This document shows, in pieces, positions 30,604 through 63,581 of a stretch of 64,000 nucleotides of DNA. The position numbers were made by a program, and so were the translations under genes. Source of the DNA: Thermoleophilum album (lineage in GTDB: Bacteria; Actinomycetota; Thermoleophilia; Solirubrobacterales; Thermoleophilaceae). The notes beneath the pieces were generated by a model. That model saw nothing but the letters and a program-made list of their open reading frames with translations. It was not told the origin of the DNA and made no database searches. Position 1 is the stretch's first letter, and every line of letters starts with the position of its first letter. Location: positions 568,382 through 632,381 of the forward strand of contig NZ_FNWJ01000002.1 of NCBI RefSeq assembly GCF_900108055.1, written 5' to 3'.

Positions 30604-31491
30604 TCATTGGGCCTCCCGACCGAGGGTGATCTTGGTACCGATGCCGGTGTCAGTGAACAGCTCCAACAGCAGCGAGTGCGCGACCCGGCCATCGATGATG
30701 TGGGCGCTCTCGACGCCGGCCTCGAGCGCACGTAGGCACGCTTCGAGCTTCGGGCGCATACCGCCGGAGACCGACGGTAGTCGCGCCCGCACCTCGGCGG
30801 CGGTCGCCTCGGAGATCGTTGAGTCCGGATCGTCGGGATCGGCCCGCCAGCCCTCGACGTCGGTGAGAAACACGAGCTTGTAGGCACCGAGCGCTGCCGC
30901 CACTGCCCCGGCGGCAGCGTCGGCGTTGATGTTGTAGGAGCGACCCTCGGCGTCGGAGCCGACCGACGCCACGACCGGGATGAAGTTCTCCGCGATGTCG
31001 TTCAGAACCTCGGTGTCGACGCGCTCGATCTCACCGACGAAGCCGATGTCGGCACCACCAGGACCGAGCTGCTTACGCACCCGAAACAGCAAGCCGTCGT
31101 CCCCGCACAGGCCCACCGCCGGCTGACCGTGCCGGTTGATGCGCAGGACGATGTCCTTGTTCTGCTTGCCGACGAGCACCATCTTCGCGATCTCCACCGT
31201 CTGCTCGTCGGACACCCGCAAACCCTCGACGAACCGCACCTCGAGACCGAGGCGCTCCATGTAGCGCGTGATGTCGGGACCGCCACCGTGAACGACGATC
31301 GGGTTCATCCCGACGTACTTGAGGAGCACGACGTCGCGCGCGAACTCCTCGCGCAGGTGTGCCTCGGTCATCGCCGCGCCGCCGTACTTGATAACCACCG
31401 TGCGTCCGTGGAACTGACGGATGTAGGGCAGTGCCTCAAGCAGCGTGGCGACGTCGCGCCCAGCTGCCGACCGTGCTCTCGACTCGCCTAT
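30604..31491 (-). CDS. argB: Acetylglutamate kinase, apparently with an ATA start
   Basis: ArgB, phosphorylates N-acetylglutamate; second step of arginine synthesis. The core is clear: VVIKYGGAAM, IVVHGGGPDITRYMERLG, VGLCGDDG, INADAAAGAVAAALGAYKLVFLTDVEG and SGGMRPKLEACLRAL. The conserved N-terminal block LLEALPYIRQFHGRT lies upstream of the first GTG and must be translated, yet between it and the in-frame TAG at 31498 there is no ATG, GTG or TTG. ATA at 31491 has GGAGG nine bases before it and gives 295 residues, the usual actinobacterial length; CTG 31457 is the other option. Lies between argJ (25 bp) and argD. Confidence 0.9.
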   Translation of the reverse strand: MGESRARSAAGRDVATLLEALPYIRQFHGRTVVIKYGGAAMTEAHLREEFARDVVLLKYVGMNPIVVHGGGPDITRYMERLGLEVRFVEGLRVSDEQTVEIAKMVLVGKQNKDIVLRINRHGQPAVGLCGDDGLLFRVRKQLGPGGADIGFVGEIERVDTEVLNDIAENFIPVVASVGSDAEGRSYNINADAAAGAVAAALGAYKLVFLTDVEGWRADPDDPDSTISEATAAEVRARLPSVSGGMRPKLEACLRALEAGVESAHIIDGRVAHSLLLELFTDTGIGTKITLGREAQ

Positions 31492-31500
31492 GGCCTTCTA

Positions 31501-31505
31501 CCTCC
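31501..31505 (-). promoter_or_regulatory. Ribosome-binding site pointing to the ATA start of argB
   Basis: GGAGG on the minus strand, ending 9 nt before ATA 31491. No usable ATG, GTG or TTG lies at a suitable distance in the argB frame. Confidence 0.6.
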
Positions 31506-31516
31506 GCGCTTTCGCT

Positions 31517-32788
31517 CTAGGTCGTGTACTCGGCGTTGATCCGCACATACTCGTGGCCGAGGTCGCTGAAGAACAGCTCCGTCGCGCCGCCGCTGCCCGG
31601 GACCCGCAGCTCAAGCTCGACTTCGCGCTGTGCGAAGGCGCGCTCGAGGCTCTCCAGCAGGCGTCCGTCGAGCGGTACCGCGACGCCGGCACTGGCCGCC
31701 GGAATGCCCTCCACCTCGATGTCCACGAGACCAGGAGCTCGGCGTTCAGCGAGCGCTTGCCCCGCTGCCTGAAGGATCCGCCCGACGTTCGGGTCGGCGC
31801 CCGCGAGCGCGGTCTTCACGAGCGGCGACTCGGCGACCGCACGGGCGACCGGCTCGACTAGCTCCGGCGCACCTTGCACCACCACGCGGGCGACCCGCTC
31901 GGTCCCCTCACCGTCGGCGACGATCTCCAGCGCCAGCTGGCGGAAGAGCGCGTCGAGCGCCTCCCCGAGGCGCACCTCCGCTTCGCTCTCGAACGTCACT
32001 TCGACACCGCTCGCCCCACTGGCCAGCAGGAACACGCTGTCGCTGGTCGAGAGCTGACCATCGACCGAGATGCGCTCGAAGGAGCGCCGCACGCAGACGG
32101 TCGTGAGTAGTTCCAGCGACTGGGGTGCGACGCGCGCGTCGGTTTCGCAGAAGCAGAGCATCGTCGCGAAGCGGGGAGCGATCATGCCGGCCCCCTTCGC
32201 CTGGGCCGCGAGCCGCACGCGCCCTCCTGGCAGGTCGACCTCCAGACACGCCCGTTTCGGCCAGCGGTCGGTGGTCATGATCGACCGCGAAAAGGCGTCG
32301 GCATCGGCCGCGAGCGCCCCGCAAGCGCGCTCCACACCGGCCAGGAGCAGCTCCTGTGGGAGCGGCCGGCCGATCACGCCGGTGGCGGCGCACCCGACGC
32401 GGCTGGGCGCAACCCCTAAATGTTCGGCGAGCGCTCGCTGGGCTGCGCGAGCGGCGCGCAGCCCCTCATCGCCGAGCGCGACGTTGGCGTTCCCCGAGTT
32501 GACGACGATGCCACGCAGGCGGCCGCGATCGGCCTCGCGGCTCACCGTCACCGGCGCTCCGACCACCGCGTTGGCGCAGAAGCGCGCACTCGACACGGCG
32601 TCGTCGCGATCGCAGACCAGCACACCGACGTCGAGCTCTCCACCGGGCTTGATCCCCGCCGCGACGCCGGCACTGCGGAAGCCGGCAGGCAACGCCGTCG
32701 GCTCGAGCTCACGCACGTGATCGGGCCGTTCGACCCAACGTGAGCGGAAGAAGGTGGGCGATGCCTGCTCGGGGTTGGCCGCCGCCAC
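31517..32788 (-). CDS. argJ: Glutamate N-acetyltransferase / ornithine acetyltransferase
   Basis: ArgJ, 423 residues, transfers the acetyl group from acetylornithine to glutamate and thus recycles acetate in arginine synthesis. The self-cleavage site is in KGAGMIAPRFATMLCF; Thr209 of this start is the nucleophile after processing into alpha and beta chains. GVIGRPLPQELL and GVEVTFESEAEV / NVGRILQAAGQA are also characteristic. GTG 32788 lies two bases after the argC TAG. The first 30 residues exceed the family N-terminus, so a later GTG (about residue 28) is possible. Confidence 0.95.
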   Translation of the reverse strand: MAAANPEQASPTFFRSRWVERPDHVRELEPTALPAGFRSAGVAAGIKPGGELDVGVLVCDRDDAVSSARFCANAVVGAPVTVSREADRGRLRGIVVNSGNANVALGDEGLRAARAAQRALAEHLGVAPSRVGCAATGVIGRPLPQELLLAGVERACGALAADADAFSRSIMTTDRWPKRACLEVDLPGGRVRLAAQAKGAGMIAPRFATMLCFCETDARVAPQSLELLTTVCVRRSFERISVDGQLSTSDSVFLLASGASGVEVTFESEAEVRLGEALDALFRQLALEIVADGEGTERVARVVVQGAPELVEPVARAVAESPLVKTALAGADPNVGRILQAAGQALAERRAPGLVDIEVEGIPAASAGVAVPLDGRLLESLERAFAQREVELELRVPGSGGATELFFSDLGHEYVRINAEYTT

Positions 32789-38727: not shown

Positions 38728-39297
38728 TCAAGCAGACTTCGCGCGATCCTTGCGCTTGAGCGGGGCCAGCAGCATCGTCATGTTGCGCCCGTCCTGGGCC
38801 GGCTGCTGCTCGACGACCCCGAGGTCGGCGACGTCTTCCGCGAGCTTGCGCAGCAGCGCCTCGCCGCGCTCGGGGTGGGTCTGCTCGCGACCCCGGAACA
38901 TGATCGTCACCTTCACCCGATCGTCCCGCTCGAGGAAGCGGCGAACGTGCCCCATCTTCGTTTCGTAGTCACGTTGCGCGATCTTCGGGCGCAGCTTGAT
39001 TTCGCGCACGTGCACCTGCTTTTGATGCCGCCGCGCGGCCTTGCGCTTCTGCTCCTGCTCGTAGCGGTACTTCGAGTAGTCGAGGACTCGCACCACCGGC
39101 GGGCGCGCCTGGGGCGCGACCTCGACTAAGTCGAGCGAGCGCTCGCGCGCGTAGCGCAGGGCTTGATCGGTCGGGACGATCCCGACCTGCTGGCCGCGCT
39201 CGTCGATGAGCCGCACCTGCGGCACGCGAATCCGCTCGTTGATGCGCGTCTCGTCGCGCTCGGGCGGGCGCCGATCGAACTTCTTTGGGACCGGCAC
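38728..39297 (-). CDS. infC: Translation initiation factor IF-3
   Basis: IF-3, 189 residues. N-terminal domain [29 protein letters not shown], linker helix ([17 protein letters not shown]), and C-terminal domain [22 protein letters not shown] with [15 protein letters not shown]. It starts at GTG 39297 rather than the AUU found in E. coli. A 139-bp leader before it contains nested hairpins and a TATACT box. IF-3 discriminates start codons, which is of interest given the apparent ATA start of argB on the same transcript region. Confidence 0.97.
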
Positions 39298-39350
39298 TAG
39301 GCGATCTGCACGTCGAAGCGTTCGCTCAACTCAGGTCCACCGGCTCGAGG

Positions 39351-62498: not shown

Positions 62499-63248
62499 TC
62501 ACGGACTGAGGCCGACGGAGGGATCGGAGCGGCGACCCGAGCGCCGAGCGCTGCGGCGACGCTCCCACGCTGCGAGTCGCCAGAGGTCGCGACGTACGCG
62601 CGCCGGATCGTGTTGGCGTCCGACGAGGTGCATGTTGGCGCGACGCAGCAGACGCTCCTCGTCGGAGGTGAGCGCCATCCATTTAGCGAGCACATCATCG
62701 GAGGGCGGTAGACGCTGGCCATCCAGGTCTGGGAACTCCACGCAGTACTCGGCGATCAACTCGCCGGTCGCCGGGAAGAAAGCAACGAGCGGCTTGCGCG
62801 GGTACACCAGGTACGCGTAGCGCGGCTGGCCGGCGCGGCGCGACCGGCCATAGACGCGGATAAATCCGAGGTCGCGGTACATCTCCCACTCCTCGGGACC
62901 CACGCAGGACTTGAGGAGCTCCCGTGCGCGCCGCTCCGCGCGCCGTTCCCGCCCGGGATCCGGCACGCTTAGCCCCCCCGAGCGAGGGACTGGCTTTTGG
63001 CGCGGCGACGGGAACATCGCTGGCGCGACCCTCGGCCTCGGGGCTGCCGCGGCTGGTAGCTGACTATCGGGCTCGGGCATGCCGAGCGCAGCCTCGTCAT
63101 CGCGCTCAACGAGCGTGCCGCGACGCCGACTTCGCCAGCCCGGACGCCCCCGATTGCAACGCTCGAGATGCGCGATGAGAGCTTCGAACAAGAGTGCTGC
63201 GACCAACGCGCCGCACAAGGCAAGCAGGACGGCCGCGGACGGGCTCAC
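62499..63248 (-). CDS. Membrane-anchored protein of unknown function
   Basis: A 249-residue protein from GTG 63248, overlapping the small gene stop as GTGA. One N-terminal helix (AAVLLALCGALVAALLFEALIA), a Pro/Arg-rich linker (25-90), then a soluble domain with CVGPEEWEMYRDLGFIRVYGR and PRYAYLVYPRKPLVAFFPATGELIAEYCVEF, ending in a basic tail (RRRSARRSGRRS). It follows the small paralogue gene and is followed by ilvD. I do not recognise the family. Confidence 0.68.
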   Translation of the reverse strand: MSPSAAVLLALCGALVAALLFEALIAHLERCNRGRPGWRSRRRGTLVERDDEAALGMPEPDSQLPAAAAPRPRVAPAMFPSPRQKPVPRSGGLSVPDPGRERRAERRARELLKSCVGPEEWEMYRDLGFIRVYGRSRRAGQPRYAYLVYPRKPLVAFFPATGELIAEYCVEFPDLDGQRLPPSDDVLAKWMALTSDEERLLRRANMHLVGRQHDPARVRRDLWRLAAWERRRSARRSGRRSDPSVGLSP

Positions 63249-63475
63249 AGCGTGCGGCCCCTGCGCGAGCACCGCTGCTCGCTACTCCCGTCGCCCCCCT
63301 GGGCGCGAGGGAAGAAGATCACCGCTTCGGCGTCGGGCGGAACCTCCGCCAGGTTCGACACCAGGAGCGCCTCGCGCCGGCCGTTGCGCACACCCGAGAG
63401 TGGCACGCCGGCCCACATTCCTGCGTCGAGCTGGCGCCGAAACTCGCGCTCGAGACGCTCGAGGTCGGCATCCAC
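63245..63475 (-). CDS. Small protein, paralogue of the one at 3.4 kb; start uncertain
   Basis: From GTG 63475 the product has 76 residues with LEREFRRQLDAGMWAGVP and VPPDAEAVIFFPRA, matching the protein at 3385-3609. The frame stays open upstream to about 63.56 kb and there encodes IKFLRLKPGFGEVLLAEG, which parallels the paralogue's N-terminus GKLVRLDASGHSELAEW. No ATG, GTG or TTG begins that longer form; an ATC preceded by GAGGA is the only hint. So either a non-canonical start is used or the N-terminal strand is lost. The tail after RAQGG is frame-specific and poorly conserved. Overlaps the next gene as GTGA. Confidence 0.65.
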   Translation of the reverse strand: MDADLERLEREFRRQLDAGMWAGVPLSGVRNGRREALLVSNLAEVPPDAEAVIFFPRAQGGDGSSEQRCSRRGRTL

Positions 63476-63581
63476 TCGCGGATCTCCCTCCGCTAGGAGG
63501 ACTTCGCCGAACCCTGGTTTGAGCCGTAAGAATTTGATCGTCCGTCCTCGCTTGCGCTGCGGTGTACCCCGACCCGACCGC

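Follow-up and report, generated by a model that had tools for sequence, protein, structure and literature searches.

A probable AUA start codon for argB in Thermoleophilum album, and AUA and AUC starts of other genes on the same contig

Where does translation of argB begin in Thermoleophilum album? The gene lies in the analysed window, a stretch of 64,000 nucleotides to whose positions the coordinates below refer unless they carry the prefix C2, for the contig; all features given by window position are on the minus strand. Its identity is clear: argB is present in a single copy in the genome, and its product matches Pfam AA_kinase (E 7e-46), scores above the cut-off of TIGR00761 and aligns with PDB 2jj4 from residue 10 onward (E 5.6e-87), as acetylglutamate kinase (NAGK). 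The start is not. An in-frame TAG (31498-31500) shuts the frame upstream, and the codons that follow it are AAG GCC ATA(31491-31489) GGC GAG TCG AGA GCA CGG TCG, then GCA GCT GGG CGC GAC GTC GCC ACG CTG CTT GAG GCA CTG, and finally CCC TAC ATC CGT CAG TTC CAC GGA CGC ACG GTG(31398). Translation of this frame meets zero ATG, GTG or TTG between the TAG and that last codon, the first canonical one in the list of open reading frames (31396-31398), which would open a protein of 264 aa without the N-terminal extension of the enzyme. ATA and ATC are among the possible starts of genetic code 11, and ATA starts, though rare, do occur in bacteria. Read from the ATA, the coding sequence spans 30604-31491 and encodes 295 aa. 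The earlier note on this DNA had reported the lack of a canonical codon after the TAG, the ATA with GGAGG at 9 nt and 295 residues, and an encoded conserved N-terminus; the first two are confirmed in the sequence and its translation, and the third by the comparison that follows.

Do the codons in front of GTG 31398 encode protein? The genus comparison set consists of three genomes, one of the window species and those of two congeners. Against each congener (L004 and L005, which are identical to each other across this segment), the 21 codons from 31461 to 31399, encoding GRDVATLLEALPYIRQFHGRT, show six differences, all of them at synonymous third positions. When six differences were placed at random, all were synonymous in 0.3% of trials (P 0.003). 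Relatives have the same residues, MRDVATLLEALPYIREFHG, at this position. Since the differences from the congeners are synonymous only, these codons are translated, and the extension is, by this pattern of substitution, under protein selection. In arginine-sensitive NAGKs, the N-terminal extension serves to join dimers (PMC3329491). E. coli NAGK does not have it, and 1gs5 aligns from residue 32. This trait of the arginine-sensitive enzyme is present in the argB studied here, provided that ribosomes begin 5′ of 31461. Initiation at GTG 31398, which the earlier note had placed at 31401, would have the advantage of a canonical codon and would give an E. coli-like, arginine-insensitive NAGK whose fold begins with the same strand as that of the E. 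coli enzyme, with the LLEALPYIRQFHGR stretch left untranslated. However, the conserved part would then be lost, although the 21 codons preceding this GTG evolve as protein in the lineage and the extension is present in all 107 argB loci compared, and we consider such a start highly improbable.

Upstream of the conserved segment, the codons one base off ATG past the TAG are AAG 31497 and ATA 31491. AAG 31497 was rejected because it is only 3 nt from GGAGG, which is too close. The ATA (31489-31491) is the sole near-cognate codon with a Shine-Dalgarno (SD) sequence between TAG 31498 and the conserved segment. This GGAGG (31501-31505), complementary to the anti-SD of the 16S 3′ end, lies 9 nt 5′ of the ATA; spacings of 4-10 nt are common in the genome and 9 nt is ordinary, and GGAGG is expected by chance at any of 8 given positions in about 1.1% of cases. 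Two other near-cognate codons, ACG 31446 and CTG 31443, are found inside the conserved segment. Translation from one of them would yield a protein beginning near LLEALPYIR, and CTG is an accepted rare start that would keep most of the N-terminal extension. Nevertheless, neither codon has an SD upstream, and the preceding codons for GRDVAT (within the GRDVATLLEALPYIR stretch) are conserved in congeners and relatives, so that a start here is very unlikely. The earlier note had named CTG as the only other choice, and was correct about the missing SD; no CTG begins at its position 31457, the in-frame one being 31443. Least probable of all, to the point of being hardly credible, is that ribosomes get to argB by reading through the stop of argJ and then shifting frame. 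The argJ gene is directly 5′ of argB, and its frame would be open to 31439 if its TAG (31517-31519) were read through. This route requires two rare events, whereas no slippery site was seen, the local structure is not unusual, and argB of the relatives has its own start. A search for special RNA structure at the argB start found none (z between -0.6 and +1.0). From the sequence, ATA 31491 is most likely the sole credible start of argB.

The ATA is one base away from ATG. If the assembly has a base wrong here, the real sequence might have a canonical start at 31491, or it might have no TAG at 31498, in which case the frame would be open from ATG 31548 in argJ. The genome is a 2.2 Mb draft in 5 contigs (95.6% complete), and the species is represented by one genome in the comparison set. 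On the other hand, only one of 533 conserved genes on the contig is frame-broken relative to a congener, over about 590 kb aligned, and the other AUH starts of the contig are common to independent genomes. Because of this low rate of broken genes and this recurrence, a sequencing error is unlikely, if less so than a start inside or downstream of the conserved segment. A single indel within 31500-31462 would not rescue the gene either, as none of the frames would then offer a canonical start downstream of the argJ stop. The sole broken case is a GGDEF-domain gene (C2:54694-57183), which a frameshift divides in two relative to the congener.

How did argB come to lie behind such a codon? A canonical start is found 17-48 codons before the KYGG motif in 106 of the 107 argB loci, and the argB of the window is the sole exception. 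In both congeners, the argB GTG overlaps the argJ stop, a TGA at the place corresponding to 31517-31519, as ACGACGTGA; this is a coupled start without an SD. In the window species, the distance from the argJ stop to the conserved segment is longer by about 20 nt net, the overlap is gone, and an SD and ATA are found in place of it. The ten codons from the ATA to 31462 are not conserved, and 31462-31516 aligns poorly with the congeners, so the ATA itself is beyond the reach of the comparison. Alignment to close relatives, which the earlier note had proposed as a check, thus bears out the extension but not the ATA: the ATA start of argB is confined to the window species, and the start codon is not conserved in relatives. 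The likely history is that the ancestor had an argB GTG overlapping the argJ stop, and that a net gain of about 20 nt between argJ and argB in the window lineage would have led to loss of the old start and reliance on SD and AUA.

Is argB alone on the contig in this respect? At least three further genes on the contig start with ATA or ATC in common with relatives, namely gmk, pyrR and a small gene. In each of the three genomes of the genus, the ATA of gmk (C2:383151) overlaps the mihF stop (CG-ATA-G), and an ATA overlapping the stop of the upstream gene is found in nine further genomes of Thermoleophilaceae (12 family genomes in total). Other family genomes have ATC (three) or CTG as the best candidate (two), and gmk of the sister families has ATG, GTG or TTG in 10 of 10 genomes. 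pyrR (C2:372847) has ATC after AAGGAG in all three members of the genus; relatives have canonical starts nearby. The small gene (63245-63538), which encodes 97 aa and has no Pfam match, starts with ATC in 18 Thermoleophilaceae genomes, ATG in three and TTG in one. An SD motif precedes the ATC by 5-9 nt in all 18 of these genomes, compared with 18 of 252 control positions. In most of them, though not in the copy of the window, the gene also contains an ATG five codons further in. Sister families carry ATG or GTG in the position of the ATC. In several of their genomes, this ATG lacks an SD and follows a CATAAT box at a short distance, an arrangement that points to leaderless transcripts of the gene there. 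More surprising than argB itself is that AUA and AUC are conserved in these three genes.

Several other loci were noticed in the course of this comparison. Upstream of the ATG of ylxR (C2:389414-389701), coding-like conservation extends to an ATA that overlaps the nusA-side TAG, and a congener has ATC at the corresponding place, a possible further AUH start. For pyrF (C2 near 61376), which directly follows the HU gene, neither species offers a canonical codon close to the conserved N-terminus, and a clear start was not found. A glycosyltransferase-like gene (C2:338155-339393, minus strand), which begins with GTG in the congener, has no canonical codon at that place; its sole near candidate is CTG. 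Outside the family, an argD directly after argB (G033:C7:275059-276181) has no canonical start before the conserved N-terminus, and this case looks real. The number of AUH-start flags was 3 in the window genome versus 3 in one genome of another family; an excess of AUH starts in Thermoleophilaceae over other families is not established.

The best-supported start of argB is ATA 31491, because the N-terminal extension is translated, an SD precedes the codon, no better alternative exists and other AUH starts are conserved in the genus. We hold it to be very probable that argB is translated from this codon.

Does the initiation machinery of T. album explain the use of AUA? The initiator tRNA has the anticodon CAU, a stem with three G-C pairs below it and a 1-72 mismatch, the 16S 3′ end has a normal anti-SD, and no family-specific change is obvious in IF3 as judged by eye. 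An altered machinery with relaxed start selection was rejected, since initiator tRNA, IF3 and anti-SD are all ordinary. The use of AUA would then rest on context, which is the SD for argB and the stop overlap for gmk, as far as the sequence tells. The earlier note had also suggested that argB output is tied to IF3 through infC, whose gene lies upstream on the same strand. That link finds no support. infC (38728-39297) is about 7 kb from argB, with pheS, pheT, argC and argJ among the genes between, and its position is irrelevant as IF3 acts in trans. Moreover, the start codon of infC is GTG in each of the three genomes of the genus, rather than the AUU or AUA that autoregulation of the infC type would involve. 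This GTG overlaps a TAG (CTAGTG; 39290-39300) in the window species and many relatives, and the TAG may terminate a short leader reading frame.

Initiation at argB most likely proceeds as follows. The 30S subunit would bind GGAGG (31505-31501), probably assisted by ribosomes finishing argJ at 31517, 25 nt upstream of the ATA. The initiator fMet-tRNA would pair its anticodon CAU with AUA, with a mismatch at the third position. The predicted product, 295 aa long, is an arginine-sensitive NAGK, presumably made at reduced yield. The use of AUA in the cell, the lower yield and the help from argJ ribosomes are, like the order of the changes, what we infer from this arrangement. More tentatively, the AUA and AUC starts of gmk, pyrR and the small gene may have been retained in Thermoleophilaceae for a long time because selection favours weak, IF3-sensitive starts as a means of control, with argB of the window as a recent recruit; we regard this as possible but rather doubtful.

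Such starts matter for annotation, as gene finders limited to ATG, GTG and TTG would miss or shorten these genes. For ArgB, the shortened model leads to a false prediction of an arginine-insensitive enzyme. Whether weak starts are selected or merely tolerated is a question to which a comparison of the small gene (ATC, 18 genomes) and gmk (ATA, 12) across the family lends itself naturally.

With respect to known systems, the argB product is the same enzyme as the arginine-sensitive NAGKs, including the N-terminal extension (PMC3329491; PDB 2jj4, 2bty, 2buf), and differs from them in the start codon only. The argB start also invites comparison with AUH starts described elsewhere. One example is E. 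coli infC, which has an AUU start and is autoregulated by IF3 (cited in PMC13009471). It resembles argB in having an AUH start, against which IF3 would be expected to discriminate; unlike it, argB is not infC, and infC of the window genome begins with GTG. In vitro, weak third-position pairs are excluded by IF3 (PMC10158994), which is also thought to modulate weak starts (PMC13009471), and general discrimination of IF3 against AUA is expected here by analogy. In S. aureus, infC, ccpN, citZ (AUA) and cvfC1 (AUU) are AUA/AUU-initiated genes, and in poor medium the yield of ccpN, citZ (AUA) and cvfC1 (AUU) is about 10% of that from AUG (PMC13009471). By the same analogy, IF3 sensitivity and a lower ArgB yield are expected. 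The AUA genes of S. aureus resemble argB in having an SD followed by AUA, and they include a metabolic enzyme, citZ. There is thus a precedent for a metabolic gene with an AUA start, and, judged from its sequence, argB most likely adds one more case. The S. aureus genes have been characterized by ribosome profiling and reporters and have extended SDs (PMC13009471), whereas argB, inferred from sequence, belongs to an actinobacterium and has a 5-nt GGAGG in front of its AUA.
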